Origin: Thermodesulfatator indicus DSM 15286
GTDB lineage: Bacteria > Desulfobacterota > Thermodesulfobacteria > Thermodesulfobacteriales > Thermodesulfatatoraceae
Direction of reading: 5' to 3'
DNA: 64,000 nt
NCBI RefSeq assembly: GCF_000217795.1
Contig: NC_015681.1
Location: forward strand, 2,223,244 to 2,287,243
In this document: one piece after another, positions 37,821 to 53,263 of the stretch
How positions within the stretch are numbered: the first letter of the stretch is position 1
Layout: each line of letters starts with the position of its first letter
Notes under the pieces: model-generated
What the model was told of the DNA's origin: nothing
The model's input: only the letters and a program-made list of their open reading frames with translations
Database searches by the model: none
Program-made: the position numbers and the translations under genes

Positions 37821-38717
37821 TTAAAGTTCAAGCCAGGATTCAGAAAAGATGGTCTTCCCAAGAAGCACCCTCGCCGTCTTGTATATCTCAAGCTCCTTGG
37901 GCGAAAGCTTGCTCGGATCCGGCTCGTCTCCGTCCATCATATCATGCACCAACTTTACCCAATCTGGATGCTTGCCTTTGGCTATCTCCACCAGCTCTTT
38001 GTCGTAAATGTTCAAAATCGCCGAGTAAATGTTGTACTTCATGAGCATCATCAAATACACCCGGTCAAGATAACAGCGCAGGTGATGCGGTACTCCGTTT
38101 GATACGTTTGAAAGCCCTATGGTGCTCTTACACCCAGGCGCAATATCTGGAAGCATGGCAAGGAAATTAAGACCTTCAAGAATCTGGTCGGCCCCAAGGG
38201 TAATGGGGGTGCCGATGGGGTCAACCCAGATTTTTTCGTTGGGGATACCGGCCTCGTTTAAGGCCATGATAAGGTCAACGGCCATGGCCGCCCGCTCGTT
38301 GGCGTCTCGTGGCATACCCTCTGGCCCCCAGAGAAGGGCTACGACATCGCAACCTACTTCCGCAGCAAAGGGAATTAGCTTTTCCATACGCTCAGGCTGG
38401 GCCGAGATAGAGTTCATGAGCACGCGCGAGGGATTCTTTGAGGCCTTAATGCCGGCGATCATGGCCTCAGGGTTGGTGGTGTCAAGGGAAATGGGAGTGT
38501 CAACCACTTCTTCTACCACTTTGACAATCCAGGCGGCGAGGTCCGGGCCGTCTTTTTTGGCCGGGCCGATGTTTAAGTCAAGGTAATCGGCGCCTAGTTC
38601 GGTTTCTTCCTTGGCCATCTCCTGGATAGGGCCGGGGTTTCTATCTCGCATGGCCTGGCCGGTACGTTTCCCCATGATGTTGATAGACTCTGCAATACAA
38701 ACTACCGTCTGACTCAT
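37821..38717 (-). CDS. acsE: Methyltetrahydrofolate:corrinoid/iron-sulfur protein methyltransferase
   Basis: Transfers the methyl group of methyl-THF to the cobalt of the corrinoid iron-sulfur protein. 298 residues forming a pterin-binding TIM barrel. ESINIMGKRTG, GADYLDLNIGPA, SLDTTNPEAM, WVDPIGTPI and TIGLSNVSNGVP match AcsE. GAGGAGGC precedes ATG 38717. It follows the HEPN reading frame by only a few bases and lies in the acs operon. Confidence 0.95.
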   Translation of the reverse strand: MSQTVVCIAESINIMGKRTGQAMRDRNPGPIQEMAKEETELGADYLDLNIGPAKKDGPDLAAWIVKVVEEVVDTPISLDTTNPEAMIAGIKASKNPSRVLMNSISAQPERMEKLIPFAAEVGCDVVALLWGPEGMPRDANERAAMAVDLIMALNEAGIPNEKIWVDPIGTPITLGADQILEGLNFLAMLPDIAPGCKSTIGLSNVSNGVPHHLRCYLDRVYLMMLMKYNIYSAILNIYDKELVEIAKGKHPDWVKLVHDMMDGDEPDPSKLSPKELEIYKTARVLLGKTIFSESWLEL

Positions 38718-38719
38718 AT

Positions 38720-39137
38720 TTAAGCCTCCTCATCAAGTTTATCTTCAATGCGCCTTAAAATATTTCGCATAAGTTCTGCATATTTGGGCAAATCACGGTA
38801 AATCAGCCTGGCCACTTCCTCCCTGTAAGTGTGCGAGGTGGCATTCCTGGCATCTACCATTTTTAAAGGCCAGTTCTGTCTCTTCCGGCGAAAGAAGCCC
38901 TACTTGTCCGGCAGTCCGAAAACAACTTTTCGGTGAATAACATTCTAACTTCTCAATTTCCCAGAGAAATTGCTTGAGCACCTTCCAGACTACCTCAAAA
39001 GTATATTCAAATCTTTGAATAGAAGCGTCTCTAAAAATTACATAAAATTCGCTAGTTAACTCAACTTTTTTATCTAACAGTTCAGATAAAGTCTCAAGGG
39101 CCTTGTAAGCTGTGTTAAGCCGGATCTTTAAATCCAC
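38720..39137 (-). pseudogene. HEPN/HI0074-like nucleotidyltransferase-partner gene with a single-base frameshift
   Basis: The first about 90 residues match the HI0074/HEPN family that pairs with MNT nucleotidyltransferases (ASIQRFEYTFEVVWKVLKQFL). At an A5 run (38860-38864) the frame breaks: reading on gives an aberrant 22-residue tail ending at 38793. Skipping one base restores MVDARNATSHTYREEVARL and the full C-terminal helix, ending at TAA 38720-38722, 2 bases before the acsE start. The RNxTxH motif of active HEPN RNases is in the restored part (RNATSH). It may be a pseudogene, a sequence error, or slippage. It overlaps the MNT gene by 10 bases. Confidence 0.75.
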
Positions 39138-39421
39138 TTTTCTCCCTCGGTTAGTATCTTCTGGCGCAGTTCATCTGATAGTTCTTCCCACAAGACCACA
39201 TCTACCTCGTATGGGAAGGTACTTTCTTCAAGAAACTCCCTAAGCAAGGAAGCAAGCTGACTTTGCCCTTTTACTACCAGATCGAAGTCTGACGCCCTCA
39301 TCGGTCTGCCCCAGGCCCTTGAACCAAATAAAAAAATTTCCACTTCTTTAAGATTGTTTTTCTTACAAAACTCATTGAGCAAGTCTTTTAATTTTTGTGC
39401 CCATTTATCAGTATCAGCCAT
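39128..39421 (-). CDS. MNT-family nucleotidyltransferase (antitoxin-type)
   Basis: 97 residues. The minimal nucleotidyltransferase signature GSRAWGRPMRASDFDLVV gives the GS motif (about 33-34) and the metal Asp pair D45/D47, with a further Asp in EVDVVLWEEL. In MNT/HEPN pairs of this kind the nucleotidyltransferase modifies and silences the HEPN toxin. It is followed by the HEPN gene with a 10-base overlap and begins 4 bases after acsC, so it is embedded in the acs operon. Confidence 0.88.
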   Translation of the reverse strand: MADTDKWAQKLKDLLNEFCKKNNLKEVEIFLFGSRAWGRPMRASDFDLVVKGQSQLASLLREFLEESTFPYEVDVVLWEELSDELRQKILTEGEKWI

Positions 39422-39425
39422 AAAC

Positions 39426-40778
39426 CTAAGCCGCTTTCCATTCTTTCAGAAATGGCGGAAGACCGCTTGCTTCTCTCGGGCCAATTACGATTTCCCAGTC
39501 TGGTAATTCTTCTTCAAGCTCACCTTTAATACCCGCCAGATACCCGGGAATAATAAGTTTGCGGTGCTTTACCTTATCAGCAATACCGCACTTTTTTACG
39601 AACTCGGCAATGGTATCCGCCCCGAATTTCCCTGCGGCCCAGGCCGTAAGTACAGACAAACCTTCCGTGTCTTTTATAAGTAGCCAGGTAGGTACTCGGC
39701 TACCTTCTATCTCGCCCGAGACGATAAAATAAGTAAGGGCGAAGTTACAGGTGATACAGACTGGTGAGTTTTCGTCTGGGCCGTTTAGCGGATAAATGCC
39801 CTCTTCCACCACCAGCGGCCGCTGGGGGTCGGTAAAGATGTTCATGCGTTCAACCATAAGGGGATAGAGCAGATCGGCCCTAAAATCAGAAAGCACTATC
39901 ATGCCCGCATACTTGGCCACCAGCACCGAAGCGATCATATACTCGGTTACAAGATTCTCTGTAAATCGAAAGGGAAAGGTAATGCTAGGAAACCCAAAAG
40001 GCTTAAAGCGTTTTTTTATAGCGGCTCGGCGCATAATAACCTGGTCTTCATAGAGCTCACGAAGCCCTCTCGGGCCGGTATCAAGAACAATATCTTTGAT
40101 ACCTGCTTTTATTAACTCTTCCGAGATGCGAGCCGCCTCTCCTAGAGAATCAGCCTTAACCCCCAAAGGAAAGCCAGTTTCTTTGGCAAGCTCGGCCATA
40201 TCTTTAAGATTTTCTAAAGTGACCCCATAAAGAAGGGCTTTATGTTCACCACACTCTTGGGCCCCAGCGGCCAGGACATCTTTTTTCTCACTCATGAGGA
40301 CGAGAACCGCTTCTGGCACTTCTTCCCGCACTTTTTTTACCAGGTCAGCCATCTTTTGAGCATCACCGCCCACATCTTCAATAGCGATAACTTCAGGCTC
40401 AAGTTTTACCCCTACTCTTTCCCAGCGAAGTTTTTTAAACTTGGCAAGCCTTTCACTTATTTCGTCTTCAGCCATATCTGTGCGCAGTAAGAGACCAATG
40501 GCCGTTGGGTGTTCAAAGCGCTTTTCGTGGCGAAATAAAACCGTCTCACCACCAACAGCTAAAGTGTGATCCCCACTTCCAAGTTTTATAGTCCTTATAG
40601 GTGGAGCTGAGGCCTCGGAAATTTTTTCTTTGGCTTCTTCTGAAACATAAGGGCAAGCAGCAATATCAGCCTGGCCAGCCGCTACTTTCATGGCGAAGGC
40701 CAAACACGTAGGAAACCCGCACTCCTTACAGTTTTTCTTAGGAAGCATGCCCAAAATCTGAATTCCAGTAAGACCCAT
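39426..40778 (-). CDS. acsC: Corrinoid iron-sulfur protein large subunit (CFeSP gamma)
   Basis: 450 residues. The N-terminal [4Fe-4S] motif KKNCKECGFPTCLAFAMKVA binds the cluster that reactivates cobalt. A TIM-barrel domain and a C-terminal corrinoid-binding domain (about 330-450, LLIKDTEGLSVLTAWAAGKF) follow. It carries the methyl group from AcsE to acetyl-CoA synthase, together with AcsD. It lies 32 bases downstream of acsB. Confidence 0.95.
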   Translation of the reverse strand: MGLTGIQILGMLPKKNCKECGFPTCLAFAMKVAAGQADIAACPYVSEEAKEKISEASAPPIRTIKLGSGDHTLAVGGETVLFRHEKRFEHPTAIGLLLRTDMAEDEISERLAKFKKLRWERVGVKLEPEVIAIEDVGGDAQKMADLVKKVREEVPEAVLVLMSEKKDVLAAGAQECGEHKALLYGVTLENLKDMAELAKETGFPLGVKADSLGEAARISEELIKAGIKDIVLDTGPRGLRELYEDQVIMRRAAIKKRFKPFGFPSITFPFRFTENLVTEYMIASVLVAKYAGMIVLSDFRADLLYPLMVERMNIFTDPQRPLVVEEGIYPLNGPDENSPVCITCNFALTYFIVSGEIEGSRVPTWLLIKDTEGLSVLTAWAAGKFGADTIAEFVKKCGIADKVKHRKLIIPGYLAGIKGELEEELPDWEIVIGPREASGLPPFLKEWKAA

Positions 40779-40810: not shown

Positions 40811-43033
40811 CTACATAAGCGGCGGCATATCCTTAACCGGATGACCTACCTTTTCAATCCAGGCCGCCACCTCTTCTTCAGTATTGGCCACTGTTTCGTC
40901 AGCGATCTTTTCAATCAAATCAGGCACGCCTATTTCTTCTGCTCGTGCCTTGAGTTTGTCCATCAATTCTTCTTTTAAATTTTTGGGCATCCAGACCACC
41001 CGTTTAAGCCCACCTTCAGCAGTAAGGAACTTACGCGAAGTAATATAGTGTTTGGAAACCCCCATAAACCCTGGTGTCACTTGGCCACCACCCACCATAC
41101 CCGCCATGGTGGTAAACTTCATTCCCGTGGGCGTAAGACCCATATAATCACGGTTGACTATCATGATACCGTTACAGGTAGGCAGTACAGCGGCGATACA
41201 CTCAAAGCAACCACAGGCGGTCATTGGATCCACCATTATGCTATAAAGACTTACCCTTTCTACTTTTCCGCGGGAAGCCTGTTTAACGAATTCGTTTATT
41301 CCACTATATTGGCCAAGAGTTTCGTCAATAAGCTCGCCTTTAGGGATAGGCTGATTAGGTCCGGTAGGATTGATTTCGTAACAGGCCTTACCATCAAGCC
41401 AGTTGTAGGCACCACACATGCCGATTCGTTCAGGCGTAATCACGCACACATGGCTTGGCGCAAAACTCTGACAAAGCGTACAGGAGTAGTAAACATCAAC
41501 ACTTTCGTCAGTCATACCGGCAATCTTTTCGTCACGACGGGCATAAACCTGCTTGGCCAGCTCAAGTATCTCTTTTACCTTTTCCTCTTCGGTGTAGATT
41601 TTTACCTGGCACTTATCCACAATAGCACCGTACTCCTGGCGGAGCTTGGCATAAAGAATTTCACCTATGTGACGAAATAAAAAGCCTTTCTCAACAGCGG
41701 CTTTGCTAATACGAAGCCACATGATATTACGCTGCCCTACGTGCATAATGCCCTGGGCATAGTTAATAAGGTGGTGAAACTGGCGCTCTAAAATGGCCTC
41801 AAAGTCTTCCTGCATATTGGCTCCGGCCACTTCTACCAGCACAGCAAAAGGTAAGCGATATGGCGGACCTTCCAGACCAAGCTTTTCCACCTCATTTATT
41901 TCAGGGCCTATTACTTCAATTTTTCCGTCTTCCACCTCGTCAAGTTCCTTAGCCATCAGTAGCTCGACCGCAGGGGTACGCCCACCTCCACATTCAAGAT
42001 AAAGGTCTCCTTTCCGTACCCTCTCTCCCTCAAAAGCTGGGGCGTAAGCGACCGGTATATCGAGCTTAACCGCCGTGACCTTAAGCCCTCTGACTTCAAG
42101 GGCCCGGTCAACCAGCTCTTCATAAGGGACCCTGGCTACTATGTGCTCGTATGTACATATGCCCCACGGCCTTATTTCCGTGAGATTCCAGTCAGCAATA
42201 GTGGGAAACCCCCAGTTAATGGCACCAGCGGCATTAGCCGCCCATTCGTCAGTCACCGGGCCAAAGGCTATAACAAAGGAAAATGTCCTTTCTTTGTTGT
42301 AAAGAAGGTTTCCGATATAGTCACCCGGTTTAATACCACCAAATGACATGGCCACCCTGCAGGCAAAGCCTATGGCAAACACTACAGAAGTGTAGTCGGG
42401 CCCAAAAGGAATAAGGCGCGTTGGCCAGCCGAGCTGAACACCAAGCTCTTTTAGCTGCTCGGCCATGCGCACACCGCCACTGTCAGAGTGCATAAATACA
42501 TAAAGGTTTTTTTGCTGGAGTTCTTCAGCTATCTTTCTGGCTACTTCCTTGTCATAAGGGGCTCCAAGGCAAGCAGCAAAACCTGGCGCTGTTCCGTCAA
42601 CAAATTCCACTCCACGTTTACGAAAGATAACGTCGTCAGCAGCCCCAAGCCACAAATTATCTTCAGTAGGTTCTTCGGTCTTGGTGTAAATATTCGGGTT
42701 TTCAAGATACTTGATAGCTTCTATGACTTCTTCGGCAAAAAAAGTGGCCATACCAGCGTCAAGGGCCGAACCCAAATAAGGAAGCCAGATATTTTCTGAA
42801 GGAACTGGAGGTAGAAGCTTTTCCGCTTCTTCCAGTACTTCTTTACAGTCTCCAAGTTTTTTTACAGGGTACCCGAGCATGGCATAAATAATAGGCAGGT
42901 AATAAGCAGTGTTAGGAAACCCTACAGGTTGTTCTTTTCCAAACTTATCAACTGCTTCTTCATACTTAGCCCAAGCTCTATCAACGATCTTGTGTGCTCC
43001 TTTTATGGCCACATACGCCACACTTCTTGACAC
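40811..43033 (-). CDS. acsB: Acetyl-CoA synthase (CODH/ACS alpha subunit)
   Basis: Assembles acetyl-CoA from CO, the CFeSP methyl group and CoA. 740 residues. The A-cluster ligands are complete: C518, C521, C530 and C540 (YSCTLCQSF...CVIT...MCGAY) for the [4Fe-4S] part and C607-G-C609 (ACGCFE) for the distal Ni, in the same spacing as the Moorella enzyme. The N-terminal domain that contacts CODH is present, unlike in short archaeal CdhC. The start is GTG 43033 with GGGAGGGAG upstream. Confidence 0.97.
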   Translation of the reverse strand: MSRSVAYVAIKGAHKIVDRAWAKYEEAVDKFGKEQPVGFPNTAYYLPIIYAMLGYPVKKLGDCKEVLEEAEKLLPPVPSENIWLPYLGSALDAGMATFFAEEVIEAIKYLENPNIYTKTEEPTEDNLWLGAADDVIFRKRGVEFVDGTAPGFAACLGAPYDKEVARKIAEELQQKNLYVFMHSDSGGVRMAEQLKELGVQLGWPTRLIPFGPDYTSVVFAIGFACRVAMSFGGIKPGDYIGNLLYNKERTFSFVIAFGPVTDEWAANAAGAINWGFPTIADWNLTEIRPWGICTYEHIVARVPYEELVDRALEVRGLKVTAVKLDIPVAYAPAFEGERVRKGDLYLECGGGRTPAVELLMAKELDEVEDGKIEVIGPEINEVEKLGLEGPPYRLPFAVLVEVAGANMQEDFEAILERQFHHLINYAQGIMHVGQRNIMWLRISKAAVEKGFLFRHIGEILYAKLRQEYGAIVDKCQVKIYTEEEKVKEILELAKQVYARRDEKIAGMTDESVDVYYSCTLCQSFAPSHVCVITPERIGMCGAYNWLDGKACYEINPTGPNQPIPKGELIDETLGQYSGINEFVKQASRGKVERVSLYSIMVDPMTACGCFECIAAVLPTCNGIMIVNRDYMGLTPTGMKFTTMAGMVGGGQVTPGFMGVSKHYITSRKFLTAEGGLKRVVWMPKNLKEELMDKLKARAEEIGVPDLIEKIADETVANTEEEVAAWIEKVGHPVKDMPPLM

Positions 43034-43053: not shown

Positions 43054-45732
43054 TTATACAGCCATCAAGCCTTTGATAATCTTTTGGGTCACTTCTATAG
43101 CTTTAGGGTGCCTCATAATTAGAAAGTCTCCTCCAGCCATAAGAAGAGATATCGCCGTAATAGCCTCAAGGGCTATGCCCCTAATCTCCTGTTCTCCAAG
43201 CATTTCATCAGATGGAAGCCCGGCTTCTTTTGTTTTCCAGACTTCTCTCCCTACATTTATGACAAAGGGCACCTGAAGCTTATCATCTCCGGCATATAGG
43301 GCGGCAAGCCTTATACGCTCCATCACTGAATAGGTATATTCGAGTCCGTAACCAACTGCTCCCACTGAAGGATCCATACCAATACGATCAAGAGGAACTC
43401 CTATATTTTCAAGCAAGATGTTCAGTTGTTTGGCCAGGTTTACGTCTATCGGGCTTGAAGCGATAAGGGCATAACCATAACCCATAGCTGTAGCTCCAAG
43501 CGCCTGGTGGTTAGTATCTACTACCGGGCCAACCATTACATTTTTGGCCCCAAGTACGTTGGCCACTTCTCTTATGACCTCTACGTCTTTTTCCGGTGAG
43601 CCAGAACCCCAGATAACTAAAGGCACATCTACCGCATTAGCTACTTTTTCCACCACTTTGGCCGCGTGGGCTGGTTCAAGATTCATGAAATTAGGATCAG
43701 TCCCCACCAGGTACACGTTTATAGCCTCAGCCCCATAAACCTCTACACACTTTTTGGCCCAGTCTCCTGGATCAGCGAAAACGTCTTCAAAATACTTGGC
43801 TATAGATTCGGGCCAGTCCTCAGGCTTGACATCAAGTACCTCCATGGCCACCCGCGGCGGGTTCTTCATCTCTCCTTCAAAGAGATGAAATGGCAAGACA
43901 TTTGTACCGCCAAAGGCTATCTTTTTATCGCCTTCACCAATAGTGACTTCTTTAATCCAAGCAGTACCTGGTTCTTTATAAACATCTTCGGGAATACCCG
44001 CTGCCCTTTCTGATACATCACGATATTCACTAGAAAGATCTGAAAAGACAAGAATCTCGGAAACTTCAGGCGCCTCAGCGGTAACAGTCGGTTTTTCTTC
44101 AGGTTTTTCCATTGGCTTTTCTTCAACTGGAGGTGCCTCTTCAGCTGGCGGTTTCTCTTCTACCGGTGGTTTCTCTTTGGCGCGTAGTTCTTCTATTTTG
44201 ACAAGGCCTGCCTTGGCCTCCTCTTGTTCTGGTATTACGTCTAACACTTCCTTGAAAAGCTTTTCAGCCTCGTCCAGCTCTTTGGCCTCAAGTTTTTCTT
44301 TAGCTTTGTTTAGTAACTCAGCTATTTTTTGTTCTTTTTTGATGACTTCTATAGCGTTTTTGGCCGGTTCGTTTTCCGGCTCAAGCTTAAGTACTTGTTC
44401 GTAAAGAGACAAAGCCTTATCATAATCAACAGCTTCCTGAGCTGCTTTGGCCGCAGAAAGAAGGTCAGCTATCTGTTTGGCCTTTTCTTCTTCCTCTCTG
44501 GTTATAGAAGGAACTTCAGGCTTTGGCGACACCTCTTCAATAGAAGGTCTTTCCTCAATAGGCGGTACTTCACCACCAAGTAAAGTTTTTTCTAGACTAG
44601 CTAGACCTTCATGAAGCATATTTATACCTTCCCGTAGGGCATCCATGCTTGAACGCAAAGAAGAAAATACGGATTTTAAAGCCTCAACCGGCACATCAAC
44701 CTTAGGTGGCACGATCTCTTCTGGTGCTTTCTCCTCTGGTTTTTCTTCAGGTAGGGCAACCTCAGGGACTCTTTCCTCTTTGACCAATGGTTTGACTTCT
44801 TCGGCAAAAGGTCTAGCCTCAAGACCTGCTCTTTTTACTATTTCAGGAACAGCTTCTTCCCACTCAATAGCCATAATGTGAACGCCAGCTACCCCTGGGA
44901 TTTCACGCACTTGCTCTATAATTTCTACGACTATCTTTATGCCTTCTTCTTTTTTGTCTTTCGCGTCTTTTAAGCGGGAAAGAATTTCATCTGGCACATC
45001 AAGCCCGGGCACGAAATACTTCATATATTTTGCCATGCCAAAGGATTTAGGCGGCGTAACCCCGGCGAGAATAAAAAGCTTTTCAGTAAGGCCGAGGTCT
45101 CTCGCCATCTCCATAAACTTACGGAAACGCTCAAGGTTATATATGATCTGAGTTTGAATAAACTGAGCCCCGGCTGCCGCTTTTTTGGCCATCCGGTGAA
45201 CGCGAAATTCAAATGGATCGGCAAACGGATTTTCTGCTGCTCCCAGAAAAAACTCCGGGGCTTTACCTCTTATCTCTTCGCCGCATTGAAATTTCTTTTC
45301 ATCGCGCATGCGGCGGACCATGTCTAGCAGCTGAATAGAATCAAGGTCAAAGACCCCTTTGGCCTCAGGATGATTACCAAACTTTGGGTGGTCTCCGGTA
45401 AGACATAAGAGATTTCTCATACCAAGAGCAGCGGCTCCGAGGAGGTCAGCCTGAATGGCTATGCGATTGCGGTCACGACAGGTCATTTGAATAACCGGCT
45501 CAACCCCTTCTTCGCGCACCAGCACTCCAGAGGCGATAGAAGACATACGAACAATAGCCGTTTGACAATCGGTAATGTTGGCGGCATCAACATAACCCCT
45601 GATAATGCGGGCCTTTTCCCGTACCACTTCTGGATCTGCACTTTTAGGAGGGCCTATTTCACAGGTAACGGCAAAGTGGCCTTCTTTGAGAACCCTTTCT
45701 AGATGACTGAAATATTTTTTCTCTTCGCTCAC
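43054..45732 (-). CDS. Fusion of methylene-THF reductase (MetF) and corrinoid protein small subunit (AcsD) through a TPR-containing linker
   Basis: 892 residues. Residues about 8-305 are MetF-like: FAVTCEIGPPKSADP, the TGDHPKFG flavin loop, and the TIM-barrel ending in GVHIMAIEWEEAV. Then come a Pro/Glu-rich linker (310-345), a helix (347-385), two or three TPR-like repeats (about 413-515: AQEAVDYDKALSLYEQVLKL and LEAKELDEAEKLFKEVL), a second PEEK-type linker (516-555) and a complete AcsD/CdhD-type domain (557-892: KIAFGGTNVLPFHLFEG, DPNFMNLEPAHAAKVVEKVA, GSGSPEKD). It would make methyl-THF and supply the CFeSP subunit in one chain. No stop or frame break occurs between domains. Confidence 0.9.
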   Translation of the reverse strand: MSEEKKYFSHLERVLKEGHFAVTCEIGPPKSADPEVVREKARIIRGYVDAANITDCQTAIVRMSSIASGVLVREEGVEPVIQMTCRDRNRIAIQADLLGAAALGMRNLLCLTGDHPKFGNHPEAKGVFDLDSIQLLDMVRRMRDEKKFQCGEEIRGKAPEFFLGAAENPFADPFEFRVHRMAKKAAAGAQFIQTQIIYNLERFRKFMEMARDLGLTEKLFILAGVTPPKSFGMAKYMKYFVPGLDVPDEILSRLKDAKDKKEEGIKIVVEIIEQVREIPGVAGVHIMAIEWEEAVPEIVKRAGLEARPFAEEVKPLVKEERVPEVALPEEKPEEKAPEEIVPPKVDVPVEALKSVFSSLRSSMDALREGINMLHEGLASLEKTLLGGEVPPIEERPSIEEVSPKPEVPSITREEEEKAKQIADLLSAAKAAQEAVDYDKALSLYEQVLKLEPENEPAKNAIEVIKKEQKIAELLNKAKEKLEAKELDEAEKLFKEVLDVIPEQEEAKAGLVKIEELRAKEKPPVEEKPPAEEAPPVEEKPMEKPEEKPTVTAEAPEVSEILVFSDLSSEYRDVSERAAGIPEDVYKEPGTAWIKEVTIGEGDKKIAFGGTNVLPFHLFEGEMKNPPRVAMEVLDVKPEDWPESIAKYFEDVFADPGDWAKKCVEVYGAEAINVYLVGTDPNFMNLEPAHAAKVVEKVANAVDVPLVIWGSGSPEKDVEVIREVANVLGAKNVMVGPVVDTNHQALGATAMGYGYALIASSPIDVNLAKQLNILLENIGVPLDRIGMDPSVGAVGYGLEYTYSVMERIRLAALYAGDDKLQVPFVINVGREVWKTKEAGLPSDEMLGEQEIRGIALEAITAISLLMAGGDFLIMRHPKAIEVTQKIIKGLMAV

Positions 45733-45748: not shown

Positions 45749-46426
45749 TCAGTTTTTGTTAAGTTCGAGATCAGAACGCTCTCTTTTTCTCGGGCCTCCG
45801 TATCCGGCTGGGATCCAATTTTTGGGAGCCCATATCTGAGCAAGTTTTTCAAGCTCGCCTCTTGCCTTTAAGCGGTCATAAATTAACTGCCAAACACATG
45901 GAGTATCAGGAGATATTTCACACTTCCCGTTTTGGGAGCCACCGCAGGGACCGTTTAAGAGATTTTTGGCACAGCGGGCAATAGGGCATATTCCACCGGT
46001 AAGATCAAGAATACAATCACCACAACCCCGACACATCTCCTCCCACTTACCCAGAGCTGGGTTAGCTCCATAAAAGGTAGTGTTTACTCCTGGATATATC
46101 TTTAAGTCAGGATAAAGCTCTGAAGCCAGGTTAACCCCTACCCCGCAGGCCAAAGAAATCACTGCCTCAACTTCTTCTTTTAATTCTGCAAGAGGAGTCA
46201 AGTACTCAGGGTCACACTGGCGGGTGAAGGTCTTTTCTACTGTTTCTAGTGGTTTTCCGTTATTTTTCCGGGCAAGCCTTAAAGCCGAAGCTAAAATTTC
46301 TACCTCTCTGTCTCCTCCAGCCGAACAAATAGCCACACAACCACGACACCCAACTATCGCCACTTTGGCGTAGGGTTCTATCATTTCAAGAATCTGTTTT
46401 ATGGGTTTTCTTTCTGCTACTATCAT
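45749..46426 (-). CDS. metV: MetV, zinc/iron-sulfur partner of methylene-THF reductase
   Basis: 225 residues with many Cys: VGCRGCVAICSAGG, then CRGCGDC, GGICPIARCAKNLLNGPCGG and CEISPDTPCVW. This is the MetF-partner domain (annotated as methylenetetrahydrofolate reductase C-terminal domain) that gives MetF its electron supply in acetogens. The MetF domain itself is encoded 16 bases downstream as part of the AcsD fusion. The start overlaps the upstream mvhD-like stop by one base. Confidence 0.9.
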   Translation of the reverse strand: MIVAERKPIKQILEMIEPYAKVAIVGCRGCVAICSAGGDREVEILASALRLARKNNGKPLETVEKTFTRQCDPEYLTPLAELKEEVEAVISLACGVGVNLASELYPDLKIYPGVNTTFYGANPALGKWEEMCRGCGDCILDLTGGICPIARCAKNLLNGPCGGSQNGKCEISPDTPCVWQLIYDRLKARGELEKLAQIWAPKNWIPAGYGGPRKRERSDLELNKN

Positions 46427-46809
46427 TAGGCTTCCTCTTTAATCTCAAGTAGTTTTTCAAAGGTGTCTTTAACGGCTGCCACAAAGGCCCCGGTATCAAG
46501 CCTTGGCACAAAGGCCATACGCACTCTTTCGGGGTTCATATCAATCTCTGAAAGGATTTCTCTGGCAAGTTCTACTTTTTTTTCTGCTCTAGCGCTACCT
46601 GTTCGATTGTGACAGACTCCCTTTTCACAGCCTGCTACCAGCACGGCTTCTGCTCCATCTTCAAAAGCTTTAAGGATATCTACGACTTCGATTCTCCCTG
46701 AACAGGGATAACGTTTAATTTCAATTTCTGCTGGTATGTCCGATAAATCTTGAGAAGTAGCCTCGTTTGTATAGTGACAGCAAAGAACCGTAAGCTTACT
46801 CTTAAGCAT
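46426..46809 (-). CDS. MvhD-like hydrogenase iron-sulfur (delta) subunit, second copy
   Basis: 127 residues. The MvhD pattern is RYPCSGRIEVVDILKAFEDGAEAVLVAGCEKGVCHNRTGSARAEKKVE. The early motif reads LCCHYTN, so no Sec is needed or present here. MvhD proteins pass electrons between a donor and HdrA. It starts inside the HdrC-like gene (8-base overlap) and its stop overlaps the metV start, so it belongs to the HdrA-MetFV electron-transfer set. Confidence 0.88.
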   Translation of the reverse strand: MLKSKLTVLCCHYTNEATSQDLSDIPAEIEIKRYPCSGRIEVVDILKAFEDGAEAVLVAGCEKGVCHNRTGSARAEKKVELAREILSEIDMNPERVRMAFVPRLDTGAFVAAVKDTFEKLLEIKEEA

Positions 46810-47371
46810 CTACCCCCTCGCTTTTTAGAACAGTCATCTCTGGTGGCGAGTTAAGTACAATGGCTCTAGCTGGGCATTCCACCACACATATGCCACAGGC
46901 TCTACACTTGTCAGGTTGAATTACGGCATAACCTTCTTCGGTAATATACGGAGCTTTAAAGGGGCAATCCCTTACACAGGTGAGACAAGCAATACATTTA
47001 TCAGCTATAACACGAGCCAAACGCCCCACCTTAAAGCGCATTTCTAAAGCACACTCTGGATCTCTCTCTTCCACCACCGCTTTGAGGGCCTTGATAACTT
47101 CCATGGGCTTAACTTCCATAGGGCAAACAGGCACACATGAACCACAACCAGAACACTTCCAAATAGTCTCAGTCTTTAAAAACCTATCCTTTAACCCCAG
47201 AAGTACTCCGTGAACGATGACCCGTGGATCAAAGTCATCTTGGACCTTTTCTACTGGGCATATCCCCGAACAGGCTCCACAACGAAAACATTGGGCCAGT
47301 GTAGCCGGTGCTTGATATTTTTCTTTTAATTCAAAGACAAATCCTGGGTCCCTCTTTTCCAGTTCAATCAT
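46802..47371 (-). CDS. HdrC-like ferredoxin-domain protein with four [4Fe-4S] motifs
   Basis: 189 residues. The first half has the HdrC-like pair CFRCGACSGICP and CSGCGSCVPVCP with the helical spacer. The second half adds two ferredoxin motifs, CIACLTCVRDCPF and CRACGICVVECPA. So it fuses an HdrC module to a two-cluster ferredoxin. It probably links HdrA/MvhD to MetV. No HdrB gene (CCG domains) accompanies it anywhere in the window. Confidence 0.87.
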   Translation of the reverse strand: MIELEKRDPGFVFELKEKYQAPATLAQCFRCGACSGICPVEKVQDDFDPRVIVHGVLLGLKDRFLKTETIWKCSGCGSCVPVCPMEVKPMEVIKALKAVVEERDPECALEMRFKVGRLARVIADKCIACLTCVRDCPFKAPYITEEGYAVIQPDKCRACGICVVECPARAIVLNSPPEMTVLKSEGVDA

Positions 47372-47377
47372 GCTATT

Positions 47378-48130
47378 CTATCTCCTGGGCTCCAGAGTAT
47401 CTCCCTTTCTTTCAATCTTACCCTTCTTCTGCAACGTCTCAAGGATATTAACGATATCATCAGAGGTTGCGCCTGTTTTTTTAAGTAAAGTATCAACAGA
47501 AATAGGCCCTTTTGAAAGAAGATCTTTGACTTCTTCTTCAAAAAGAATTTTCTTCATAACAGGCACGACTTTTTCTTCTATTTTCTGGCTAATGTTTTCA
47601 GGGCTATAGTCGCCAAGCTTTTTAATCTGTCTCGCCACATTGCCAAGCGCTGTACGAAAACGCGCATTTTTAGCCACTTTACAGGCGGCATTAAGTCTGA
47701 AATTAAGGGTCTCTTTATCAAGCCCTTCGGGCTCGCCAAGAGGTCCAAGCTCTTTTATCTGTTCGTTAAACTTGGTAAGAAGCTGCACAAAGAGAAGGGC
47801 CTCTGCCGCTGAAGCCCACTCAAGGTCAAGTCGCTCAATTTTAAGACCTACCAAGTCCAAAAGCCTTCTAACGGCCTCAACCTGCACCATGGCCTCGTAA
47901 TTGCCAGTCTGATAATGACATTCTCCCAGGTGGCAACCGCCGACGAGCACACCATCAGCCCCGGCACGAAAAGCCTCTAGGATAAAGAGCGGATCAATCC
48001 GCCCTGTACACATAACCCTTATTACCCGGTTGTTAGGGGGATATTTATATCTTGCGACACCTGCCGCGTCTGCTGCCCCGTAACATCACCAGTGGCATAA
48101 AAAAGATATTATCCTGGGTTCAAAACTCAT
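47378..48130 (-). CDS. mvhD: Selenocysteine-containing MvhD-type electron-transfer subunit
   Basis: 250 residues starting at ATG 48130 (GGAGAG upstream) and read through UGA 48088-48086 as Sec15 in FLCHW-U-CYGAADAAG. The family motif is FLCNWC or FLCNWU, and selenocysteine versions (VhuD) are established in methanogens. Downstream, RVMCTGRIDPLFILEAFRAGADGVLVGGCHLGECHY is classic MvhD. The last about 60 residues form an extra winged-helix-like tail (VDTLLKKTGATSDDIVNIL). Without readthrough a start at 48013 would remove the first cluster ligands. It lies 26 bases after hdrA. Confidence 0.9.
48054..48088 (-). promoter_or_regulatory. Candidate SECIS element of mvhD
   Basis: After the UGA (48088-48086), GACGC (48070-48066) pairs with GTGTC (48060-48056) around a GGCAG loop, extended by GC/GC outside a bulged A (48073-48054). 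The distance from UGA and the G-rich apical loop fit bacterial SECIS elements. Confidence 0.55.
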
Positions 48131-48156: not shown

Positions 48157-51100
48157 TTAAGCAGCCTCTTCAGAGGCCTCCTCATGAGATTCTTCTACAA
48201 ATTTGCCAAAAGCCTCTATCTGAGCAAGAATGGCCTCGTCTGAAAAACCTCCCATCTCAATGGCAAACACTGGACAATGCGAGGCACACACTCCACAACC
48301 TTTACAAGATGCCGTAATAACCCTGGCCTTTTTGCGTTTGCCTTCTTTTATCATTTCAATAGACCCATACGGACAAAGCTCTACACAAATACTACAACCA
48401 ATACATTTCTCAGTTATAACCCTAGCTACAATGGGTGGTACTTCCACATAACCGCTAGCCATGGGTTCCACCGCTTTAGCCGCTGCTGCCCGAGCCTGAG
48501 CAAGCGTTTCTTCAAGGGGTTTAGGCCCATGAGCCAGTCCACACACATAAATACCGTCAACGGCAAGCTCAACCGGCATCAACTTTACGTGCGCCTCAAG
48601 GAAAAAACCGTCTTTAGTAAGAGGGGCCTTAATTATCTTTGAAAGATCTTCGTTTTCTCCAGGAGCAATACCTACAGAAAGGACTAAAACGTCAGCAGGA
48701 ATAAGCAAATCCTCACCTAAAAGAGAATCATAATGTTTGACGTAAAGTCTGTCTCCTTTTTTGGCCAGCTCGGGTCTTTTATCAGGAGAAAAACGCAAGA
48801 ATATCACTCCAGCCTCGCGTGCTTCGCGATAAGCATCTTCATAAAAGCCATAAGTCCTCATGTTACCGTATAAAATGTAAATATCTTTTTCGGGAAAACG
48901 CTTCTTCAGGCGAAGGGCATTCTTTACTGCCTGCTGGCAGCAAACTTTACTACAATAATTGAGATCCTCACCGCGAGAGCCCACACACTGAATCATGACA
49001 ATACTTTGGGCCTTAATAATTTTTTCTGCCCGCCCGGCCAGTTCAGCCTCAAGGTCAAGCTGGGTAATAACGTTTTCTTCTTGCCCAAGACCCCATAGAG
49101 AAGGCCTATGCTCCTTACCACCAGTGGCTAAAATTACCACTCCATGATTTACAATATCTGAACCCTTTTTATTCTTTAACGTGGAAGTGAAGTTACCAAC
49201 GTAACCAGAGATGTTTTCTACAGTAGTCTCTTTATAAACTTTTATGCGCTCGTGACTCTCCACCTGTTTTACAAGATTGGCCAGTATTTCTTGTGGATCT
49301 TCACCAGAAATGAGACCTGTTAAACGACGAAGATTGCCCCCTAATTCTTTTTCGCGCTCTACCAGATAAACTTCATAGCCCTGTTCCGCCACCGAGAGCG
49401 CAGCCTGAAGCCCTGCAGGGCCACCACCTATTACTAAAGCCGAAGGCGTTACTTTAACTTTTTGAGTTTCAAGGGGCTTAAGCCGCAAAGCCTTGGCTAC
49501 GGCCATTCTTACCTGGTCTTTAGCTTTTAGGGTAGCTTTTTCAGGATCAAAGTAATGCACCCAGGAACACTGGTCACGAATATTGGCCATTTCAATAAGA
49601 GCGGGATTGAGCCCCGCTTCTTTCAAAGTCTCTTGAAAAAGAGGTTCATGGGTTTTAGGGGTGCAGGCAGCAATCACTATGCGGTTCAAACGATATTCTT
49701 TTATTTTCTTAATTAAATCATTAAGGGCATCTTGAGCACAGGAATAAAGGACATCTTCAGTGTACACCACTCCAGGAAGAGTTGAGGCATAACGGGCTAC
49801 TTCTTTAACATCTACTACGCCTCCAATGTTTACTCCGCAGTGGCATACAAAGACCCCCACCCTTGGCTCTTCACTTTGAAGTTCTTTATCTTCTGGAGGA
49901 AATTCTTTGGTTATACTGTCTTTTCCCCTGGCCTCGGCCAGTATTTCGGAACATCTGGCGGCTACCCCGTGAGCCTGAACCACGCTCTCTGGAATATCTT
50001 TTGGCCCCTGAAAAGCACCAGCTACCAATATTCCAGGAACATTAGTTTCAATAGATGCCGAAGTTTTAGTTTTGGCAAAATCGTAGTGGTTAAGCTCTAT
50101 TCCCAAGATAGAAGCCAATTTGCGGGCATCTTTAGGAGCATCGAGTCCAACCGATAAAACTACCATGTCGTAAAGTTCGCGGTGACTTTTCCCATCGTCA
50201 GTAACGTAAGTGAGGGCTAGCTTCCTTCCTACCTGATCTATCCTGGGAACACGGGCGTAAATTATACCGAAACCGTATTTTTCAACAGCCCGGTTAAAGG
50301 CATCGTCAAAACCTTTTCCCTGTGTCCTGATATCCATAAAAAAGAGGTCTATTTCTGCTTCTGGCAAATGTTCCTTAACTATTGAGGCCTCTTTCATGGC
50401 GTACATACAACAAACCGAAGAACAATAACCATTCCCGCAAGTAACATCACGTGAGCCAATACATTGCAAGAACGCAATCTTATGGGGATGGGTAAAGTCT
50501 GAGGGCCTTATAATTTCACCTTCAGTAGGCCCTGAAGCACAGGTCATTCTTTCTATCTCCATACTGGTCATAACGTCCGGGTATTTCCCATAACCATATT
50601 TTTCAAGTACTTCGCGAGGAATCTGGCCAAAACCCAGCGCTAAAACCACTGCTCCTACCTCAAGTTCGCGTTCTTCTGGTTTCTGATCAAAGTCAATAGC
50701 ATTAGGCCCGCAAACGTTAGCACAAAGCTGACAATGTTCATGGTTAAGCCTTATACAGGTCTTAGGATCAATGTAATAAGTAGTTGGTACAGCCTGAGGA
50801 TAATCAATCCTGATGGCCTTGGTAAAAACAAGGCCTTCATTGTATTCATCTATAGCCTCCTTCGGGCAATAAGTAGTACAAAGTCCGCAAGCTGTACACT
50901 TTTGCGGATCCACATACCGCGGCTCAATCAGAAGCTTGGCCTTAAAATGGCCAGCCTCTCCAGAAAGTTCTTTAAGTTCAGCAAGCGTTATGATTTCTAT
51001 ATTCGGAGACCGCCCGGCCTCCACCAGCTTCGGCGCCAGTATTCAGATGCTGCAGTCATTGGTGGGGAAGGTTTTATCAAGCTGAGCCATAACCCCACCA

Positions 51101-51222
51101 ATGGAGGCCTTCTTTTCTACTAAATAGACATAAAACCCAAGGCCTGCTAAATCTAGTGCAGCCTGAACACCGGTAATGCCTCCACCAATAACCATAACCT
51201 TGCCACTTTTGGCTTTCCCCAT
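48157..51222 (-). CDS. hdrA: Selenocysteine-containing heterodisulfide reductase subunit A-like protein (long form)
   Basis: 1021 residues from ATG 51222 ([15 protein letters not shown]), read through UGA 51045-51043 as Sec60 in [18 protein letters not shown]; other HdrA proteins have Cys or Sec here. Domains: N-terminal FAD site, [4Fe-4S] [12 protein letters not shown] with CQLCANVC, thioredoxin-reductase-like core, then a second HdrA-like half ([12 protein letters not shown], about 400; [12 protein letters not shown], about 540) and two C-terminal ferredoxin motifs ([24 protein letters not shown]). It is a flavin-based electron-bifurcating or electron-confurcating hub, probably with MvhD and the HdrC-like protein. 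It starts 16 bases after the cooS stop. Confidence 0.92.
51010..51045 (-). promoter_or_regulatory. Weak SECIS candidate of hdrA
   Basis: After the UGA (51045-51043) a two-tier hairpin is possible: CGCC (about 51035-51032) with GGCG further down (about 51014-51011), and an inner GCT/GGC stem closing a GGTGGA loop. The stem is short and was found by eye, so this is less secure than the fdhA element. Confidence 0.35.
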
Positions 51223-51238
51223 ACTGAAAACCCCAACT

Positions 51239-53263
51239 TTATTGAGTTTGCTCTTCTGGTTCTACCCTTAAATGGGTAGGCCCAAAACAGCCGAGACCAT
51301 GAAACGGAGAAATAGTCGGTGCTCCTAAAGCCCGCCTCATGGCCATGTCGTAAAGTACTCTTGGCTTAGGTTTATCAATACCTAAGTTTTCTCGTTTTTT
51401 GCGAATATGGTCAATCATTATAGAAACAAATTCACTGGCGTTTCTCGCAATACGCCAGGAAGCGCCAAACATTTGGTTAAAATCTTCTCGCAGATAATTA
51501 GTGGCTATTTTACTGTTTTCTGTAGGAAAAGTTGGTCCAAAAACTACAGTTGTCCCGCTGCCTACAAAATAGTTACCTATAGCTATAGCCTTTTCACTCA
51601 TCCATTCTGGAGCAGAACCTACTACCGGAAGTTCGTCTATATCGTCACCTAGGCCGCCCGTGTGAACCATTTCCGTCAAAGCAATAAGAATACGAGAGTT
51701 GTCTACACAAGACCCCATATGAAGCACTGGTGGACAGCCAATAGCTTCAAGTACCTCTCTATAACTTTCACCAGCGAGATCGAGCGCATCAGGAGAAAGT
51801 AAACCATCGCGCCCAATGGCTGAAGCAGCACAACCGGTAACCACTACCAGCACATTATTGGCTATAAGTTCTTTGGCTATTTCTATGTGTAATTTTTCTT
51901 TGACGCGAAAATTATCACACCCTATAATGGCCGCTACACCTAAGATTCTTCCGTTTATGATGTTTTCATTAAGAGGCTTATAGGATGCTCTAAAACGCCC
52001 TCCTAGCATGTAAAGAATGGTTTCGTGGCTAAAACCCGCCACTACGTCCATTTTTTTCTTGGGGATATAGACGTCTTTTTTATCGCGCTTAGGAAAACGT
52101 GCTATAGCTTCTCTCAAAATATTTTTGGCTGATTCAATAGGCTTGTGGTGGTCAAAAGCTATATGAATAGCACCTTCTATTTTGGCCTTATCGCTGGTAG
52201 TTATAATGGCCGTGTGATAAGCCTCCGCTACAGTGGTAACATTTTGCATAATACATTGCACGTCAACTACCATGGCCTCAACCGCCCCGGTAGCTAGGGC
52301 AATTTCCTGCTGGACAAAACTTCCAGCTATAGGTATTCCGCGTCTCATTAAAACTTCATTTCCAGTACAACAAATACCGGCTAAATTTATGCCCTTAGCG
52401 CCGACTTTTTGGGCTTCTTTAATCATTTCTGGAAGTTGAGCGGCAATAGCCAAAGCTTCAGCTACTTCAGGTTCGTGACCGTGAACAGTAATGTTAACCA
52501 TGTCTTCTTTCAAAACACCAAGATTTACCACTGACTTAATAGGCTGAGGGATACCAAAAAGGATATCCTGTAGTTCAGTAGCAAGCATTGAGCCTCCCCA
52601 GCCATCAGCCAGGGCACAACGGATAGAGGCCTTTAAAAGGCTACGATAATCCTGGTCAACTCCCACTGTGGTACGATGAATTAGTTCTACTACTTCTCTG
52701 TCGACACCTCTTGATTCAACTCCCAGTTCACGCCACTTTTCCTGACGTTTTTCTGGTGCTCTACTGAGAAAGGCTAATCTTCCATGCTGTTTGCCAAATT
52801 CTTCAAGGGCTTTAACGGCTACCTCTTTAGCCAGTTCCTTGATAGGCTTTTTGCGATCAAGCCCTAAGTAATGGGCCACCATACGAAGTTTGGCTTTTTC
52901 TTTTATTTCAAAATCTTCAGCCTCATTGTGAACTACAGAGTAAAAGGCTTCTGCTATGCCTCTACCGTGGTCAGAGTGAGTAGCGGTGCCTGCGGCTACC
53001 ATACGACAGAAATTCCTGGCCGCTACGGTGGAAGCGGTAGCACCACAAACACCTCGCATTTCTTCTACGCCTTCTATTATCTGGCAAGGCCCCATGTGAC
53101 ATACGTTGCAACAGGTACCACCTTTACCAAATAAACAGGGCTTCATGCCCCTCTTATTTACTCGCTCTGGAGCAGTTAGGACTTTTCCTTTGATGCGCTC
53201 ATAAACATCCTGATTGATAAGACATTTTCCACAGTCTTGTCTGGCCTTTAGCCGAGGCTCCAT
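51239..53263 (-). CDS. cooS: Anaerobic carbon monoxide dehydrogenase catalytic subunit
   Basis: 674 residues. The Ni-Fe-S C-cluster enzyme reduces CO2 to CO for acetyl-CoA synthase. The N-terminal cluster ligands DCGKC and [18 protein letters not shown] (D and B clusters), the HSDHGR segment, and [37 protein letters not shown] and [11 protein letters not shown] supply the C-cluster ligands. It lies 69 bases after folD; GGGGGGA precedes ATG 53263. It is the carbonyl-branch enzyme of the cluster. Confidence 0.97.

Follow-up and report, generated by a model that had tools for sequence, protein, structure and literature searches.

The window, i.e. the whole stretch of 64,000 nucleotides of Thermodesulfatator indicus DSM 15286 analysed here, is part of a genome that consists of one contig of 2,322,224 bases. 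It contains a minus-strand gene cluster in which one gene, metF::acsD, encodes both a methylene-THF reductase (MetF) domain and the small subunit (AcsD) of the corrinoid iron-sulfur protein CFeSP. The features of the cluster are listed from upstream to downstream.

51239..53263, minus strand: CO dehydrogenase (CODH) catalytic subunit (AcsA/CooS), by domain match
48157..51222, minus strand: HdrA, probable selenoprotein, start approximate, in-frame TGA at 51043-51045
47378..48130, minus strand: MvhD/FlpD-like subunit 1, probable selenoprotein, start approximate, in-frame TGA at 48086-48088
46802..47371, minus strand: HdrC-like Fe-S protein, by domain match
46426..46809, minus strand: MvhD/FlpD-like electron-transfer subunit 2, by domain match
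45749..46426, minus strand: metV, MetF partner subunit, directly upstream of the fusion gene, by PF12225
43054..45732, minus strand: metF::acsD fusion gene, 892 aa, GTG start, AGGAGG ribosome-binding site
44803..45732, minus strand: MetF domain, residues 1-310, MetVF-type methylene-THF reductase, by Pfam and residue alignment
44575..44691, minus strand: linker helix, residues 348-386, by heptad pattern, a low-confidence model (349-384) and a shuffle test
44167..44499, minus strand: two TPRs and a cap helix, residues 412-522, by TPR_19, AlphaFold2 and structure matches
43057..43977, minus strand: AcsD domain, residues 586-892, CFeSP small subunit, TIM barrel, by Pfam, NCBIfam and structure relatives
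40811..43033, minus strand: acsB, acetyl-CoA synthase, 20 nt past the fusion gene, by domain match
39426..40778, minus strand: acsC, CFeSP large subunit, by domain match
37821..38717, minus strand: acsE, methyl-THF:CFeSP methyltransferase, by domain match

metF::acsD is a single intact ORF of 892 codons that runs from 45732 to 43054; its GTG start codon lies 16 bases past metV with a perfect AGGAGG 6 nt upstream, and it ends 20 bases ahead of acsB. In the encoded chain, Pfam identified MTHFR at residues 11-303 (PF02219; 142 bits vs a cut-off of 24; E 3.2e-41), CdhD at residues 595-836 (PF03599; 140 bits vs 24.8; E 9.5e-41) and TPR_19 (28.6 bits vs 25; E 1.8e-6), all above cut-off. NCBIfam placed an MTHFR domain at residues 6-288 and AcsD at residues 584-890 (NF003376; 367.7 bits vs a cut-off of 280); some narrower AcsD models scored below their own cut-offs. 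The chain consists of MetF (residues ~1-310), a linker of 270 residues rich in Glu, Lys, Pro and Ala, and AcsD (residues ~586-892); within the linker lie a heptad helix of 36 residues and the pair of TPRs.

Residues E25, D114, K184 and Q195 of the MetF domain align with E28, D120, K172 and Q183 of Escherichia coli MetF, i.e. the catalytic Glu and the flavin/folate-binding residues, and are identical in 38/38 aligned fused sequences; the domain is a predicted MetVF-type methylene-THF reductase. The genome encodes a second MTHFR of 516 aa (L117 4601-6151; G000:C1 about 1228600-1230150), whose chain also includes a MetV-like domain at the C terminus; it is 29% identical to the fused MetF.

The AcsD domain aligned over its full length with solved CFeSP small subunits (E down to 9e-83), the best being 2h9a/2ycl, 4c1n, 4djd, in which CFeSP is complexed with the methyltransferase, and 9fzy, in which it is found with CODH/ACS. 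The genes acsC, acsB and acsE and the CODH gene all lie in the gene cluster of the fusion. AcsD is not present here in its free-standing form of ~310-320 residues but in a chain of 892 residues with MetF at the N terminus, and this chain is the only AcsD of the genome; the remaining CdhD-family matches are AcsC and two AcsE-like genes. T. indicus uses the Wood-Ljungdahl (WL) pathway for CO2 fixation, and all enzymes of this pathway were seen by shotgun proteomics (PMC12743299). Because the fusion is the sole AcsD in an organism that fixes CO2 in this way, the protein must function as AcsD, whether fused or cleaved. In many families (L077, L079-L084, L087, L097, L098), unfused AcsD has a C-terminal tail of ~200 residues that is rich in Ala, Lys and Glu and frequently terminates in a short helix-like motif, e.g. 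KSMTDKLIERLNRIHRR.

Among the 60 relatives searched, full-length fused ORFs occur at the level of genus, family and order alike. Moreover, a search for the AcsD domain in 395 Desulfobacterota genomes located AcsD inside frames of 860-1174 aa in eleven further families; 21 of these frames were retrieved, and all begin with MetF. In total, Desulfobacterota yielded 52 distinct complete fused ORFs, which come from Thermodesulfobacteriales and from the eleven further sampled families and include those of Desulfurivibrio alkaliphilus AHT2 (G229) and Dissulfurimicrobium hydrothermale (G138). The nearest named relative, T. autotrophicus, has a fusion that is 91% identical to that of T. indicus. Together with the intact frame and the Pfam and NCBIfam domains, these ORFs bear out an earlier note on this DNA, which had read the locus as a single MetF/AcsD chain of 892 residues. 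That a sequencing or assembly error joined two genes is so improbable as to be negligible, since the 52 distinct fused proteins come from independent complete and draft genomes. In other Desulfobacterota, the methyl-branch MetF and AcsD are separate proteins, in agreement with the claim of that note that they normally reside on separate polypeptides.

In a tree of AcsD, all fused and split proteins form one clade (100/99) versus 21 unfused AcsD. This topology agrees with one fusion event, after which the gene was inherited vertically or moved between members of the phylum. In a tree of MetF, the fused MetF groups with the MetF that elsewhere adjoins metV and hdrA/mvhD genes and not with a second MetF, which adjoins acsD in the relative L056; this tree, which does not resolve its root, would allow MetF, too, to have been fused once, but does not prove it. 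In two relatives (G030, G039), MetF stands alone and the CdhD family has no match. They do not demonstrate a loss of CODH/ACS from a fused gene, since the MetF of G030 groups with that of species in which the gene is already split (93/96).

Between T. indicus and T. autotrophicus, pN was 0.07-0.19 in the linker, helix and TPR codons and 0.03 in both enzyme domains, and pS was far higher (0.52-0.80). The low pN relative to pS supports that the codons of the linker, the helix and the TPRs are translated and constrained as protein. The earlier note had suggested that a frameshift near 44050-44750 might hide a real stop and start; fused orthologues are widespread, the linker is under purifying selection and there is no convincing internal start. 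Thus, the independent fused orthologues together with a linker pN far below pS rule out a frameshift or assembly-join artefact. Equally, we find it very improbable that an internal translation start yields free AcsD in addition to the fused chain. A few in-frame ATG, GTG or TTG codons with 4-base SD matches do occur, each in a single relative, but the T. indicus linker is without any in-frame start having an SD match of at least 4 bases, the one start common to several relatives falls inside the AcsD domain, and no conserved in-frame start ahead of AcsD was present in the five nearest orthologues.

Over the fused proteins, the linker has a length of 120-479 residues (median 275), with E, A, K, P and V abundant. 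The linker helix of T. indicus, VEALKSVFSSLRSSMDALREGINMLHEGLASLE, forms a perfect heptad pattern in which 10/10 a/d positions are hydrophobic, and its heptad score was reached by 0/3000 composition shuffles; for six sequences, the number was 0-1/3000 each. Helices with a near-perfect heptad pattern are present in the linkers of Thermodesulfobacteriales, and four fused species of the genus-level group g5 have a short linker and a poorer heptad. From its sequence, the helix is predicted to be a coiled coil or a docking helix. Other families have a different well-conserved helical module of ~45 residues at the corresponding place of the linker, e.g. NERERQMALESVRQGLAALKKAFNLSDDQFDALAQFAGAEAVLK; HHalign gave a probability of 15% for the comparison with the heptad helix of Thermodesulfobacteriales, a weak hint of homology.

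An AlphaFold2 model of the whole chain had a mean pLDDT of 39.8 and was confident for the TPRs only; because only six close sequences were used, it is uninformative beyond them. In the TPR region, pLDDT was about 70-86 with helices at residues 412-519, and TPR structures matched with Z about 8-8.8. The two TPRs are found in the genus of T. indicus, in G010 and in many of the further families; among the fused linkers compared, they are absent from the f3 species, G008 and f66/f78/f102. We therefore rejected the TPRs as an essential bridge. The earlier note had described Pro/Glu-rich linkers, a helix and TPR-like repeats: all of these are present in T. indicus, and the TPR pair varies by lineage. 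What stays constant is the series of MetF, a linker, a short helical module, a second linker and AcsD, with the TPRs as a lineage-specific and dispensable addition.

In part of g5, metF and acsD are separate adjacent genes (G013, G020, G027, G035). The split proteins of G013, G020 and G027 are nested inside the fused AcsD clade, supporting that the gene was divided again there; G035 has the same split arrangement. In the split species, AcsD starts almost exactly at the heptad helix, so that the helix stays on AcsD. Because the halves are encoded separately in these four genomes, a single chain is inessential there.

The tolerance of fission in part of g5 is also what would be expected if the fusion were near-neutral, i.e. 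if an ancestral stop codon had been lost between neighbouring operon genes and the enzymes worked as if apart, with the fusion kept by inertia and 1:1 synthesis. An unfused metV-metF-acsD-acsB-acsC-acsE order exists in L056, which lies outside the fused clade, and would fit this explanation, though the MetF next to acsD there is a 44% paralogue; so would the range of linker lengths and the loose linker composition. However, the fusion has been retained over many families, linker pN is low, and the helical module is conserved amid variable linkers and remains on AcsD after fission. We consider a near-neutral fusion rather unlikely.

Linkers rich in Pro, Glu and Lys are protease-sensitive, and this sensitivity, like the existence of naturally split genes, would suit a precursor from which cleavage in the linker releases MetF and AcsD as individual subunits. 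Against such maturation, we noticed no conserved cleavage-like motif in the linkers, and it is the helix that is conserved while the linker sequence varies freely; it is distinctly unlikely in our judgement.

The gene order hdrA-mvhD-hdrC-mvhD-metV-[metF::acsD]-acsB-acsC-acsE is maintained in distant families. MetV is encoded in 18/18 searched genomes; in f66, f78 and f102, its gene lies apart from the fusion gene. The in-frame TGA codons of hdrA (NDCSI-U-ILAPK, 51043-51045) and of the first mvhD/flpD gene (CHW-U-CYGAAD, 48086-48088) suggest that both products are probably selenoproteins that are truncated by a standard gene caller. In some g5 species (L041 10943-12358, L047 10876-12291, L040 11006-12475), the Hdr/Mvh genes upstream of metV are replaced by a gene for a protein of 471-489 aa, which includes a partial CODH-like segment and ends in a ferredoxin-like one. 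Between acsC and acsE (38793-39421, minus strand), there is a pair of small nucleotidyltransferase-like and HEPN-like genes, MntA/HepT-like by appearance, which adjoins acsC in T. autotrophicus too (L033 14276-14976) and is absent from the other relatives shown.

In the WL pathway, methyl-THF is the product of MetF and MetV; AcsE transfers its methyl group to the CFeSP (AcsC/AcsD) cobamide, and CFeSP passes this group on to AcsB. Accordingly placed in one chain, the MetF domain would, with MetV, convert methylene-THF to methyl-THF, and the AcsD domain would form CFeSP with AcsC, which would receive the methyl group from methyl-THF via AcsE and deliver it to AcsB. The linker, being long and charged, would serve as a flexible tether, and the heptad helix, in some lineages together with the TPRs, as an oligomerisation or docking module. 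As Moorella-like HdrA, HdrC and two MvhD-like proteins are encoded in the operon, the fusion would be a covalent bridge from the methyl-THF-making complex to the methyl-using complex. In Clostridium ljungdahlii, the free MetVF enzyme is made up of two MetVF heterodimers (PMC8760232), and a linker coiled coil, if dimeric, would suit this symmetry. A long flexible tether raises the local concentration and fixes the stoichiometry without enclosing the substrate; therefore, true channelling is not implied.

Altogether, we favour as probable that metF::acsD encodes a genuine bifunctional WL protein that acts as one chain, in which the linker tether holds MetVF, possibly with its HdrABC/MvhD partners, beside CFeSP, AcsE and CODH/ACS at a 1:1 ratio. 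We infer from this reading that the chain would remain uncleaved, that the complexes would co-assemble, that the helix would mediate dimerisation and that the arrangement would give a kinetic advantage.

Other consecutive parts of the system are joined elsewhere. AcsC::AcsE fusion ORFs of 776-817 aa are found in G013 and G020 (L042 2958-5348, L046 3628-5958) as well as in G035 and G015, i.e. mostly in species with split metF and acsD; G015 keeps both fusions. AcsD::CODH fusion ORFs of 1123-1146 aa with a Pro/Ala/Lys-rich linker are found in G066 (L078 5315-8686) and G139 (L085 2922-6362), and in G139 an additional AcsD, which is unfused, is encoded nearby. Tentatively, AcsD might be a covalent tethering hub in Desulfobacterota: MetF::AcsD would join MetVF-Hdr/MvhD to CODH/ACS-CFeSP-AcsE such that methyl-THF is consumed at its site of synthesis, and AcsD::CODH and AcsC::AcsE would be other solutions to the same organisation. 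We regard this broader idea as possible, on balance doubtful.

WL enzymes are usually seen as soluble proteins brought together by diffusion, the CODH/ACS core excepted. In much of Desulfobacterota, however, the production of methyl-THF is covalently linked to the methyl-carrying corrinoid protein, which is direct genetic evidence that the pathway is organised in space and suggests that its enzymes are physically connected in the cell; this organisation is testable in cultured T. indicus, D. alkaliphilus and D. hydrothermale. The hosts are a large group of sulfur-metabolising bacteria, and the WL (acetyl-CoA) pathway is an ancient route of carbon fixation. The domain families are all known, and the novelty is the architecture. 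The earlier note knew of no description of this architecture, and open full texts likewise yielded no published description of a MetF::AcsD fusion, which leaves priority uncertain. The fusion also matters for annotation, as published genome accounts name the gene for one half or omit the other half: the genome paper of D. alkaliphilus names methylene-THF reductase in the cluster and does not name AcsD (PMC5016858), and the words "fusion" and "fused" are absent from a 2026 study of the WL pathway in Desulfobacterota (PMC12827605).

Among known systems, the type IV MetVF complex of Moorella thermoacetica with HdrABC-MvhD (PMC5736913, PMC8760232) has a MetF of the same family, a metV partner and, as in the operon described here, hdrA-, hdrC- and mvhD-like genes; its MetF is free and has ~300 residues, whereas that of T. 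indicus is covalently joined to AcsD. Similarly, known CFeSP (AcsC/AcsD; 2h9a/2ycl, 4c1n, 4djd, 9fzy) resembles the T. indicus protein in the end-to-end alignment of AcsD and in the operon genes acsC, acsB and acsE, but its small subunits have 309-323 residues without MetF or a linker. AcsD::CODH and AcsC::AcsE also join consecutive parts of CODH/ACS-CFeSP; however, they have other partners and occur in other lineages or beside split metF and acsD. Finally, the E2 chains of 2-oxoacid dehydrogenases are built as lipoyl domain, linker, peripheral-subunit-binding domain, linker and core. By analogy only, and with no homology claimed, they share with MetF::AcsD catalytic domains that are carried on flexible linkers of Ala, Pro and charged residues and are separated by a small helical docking module; the enzymes are different, and the fusion has no swinging cofactor arm.
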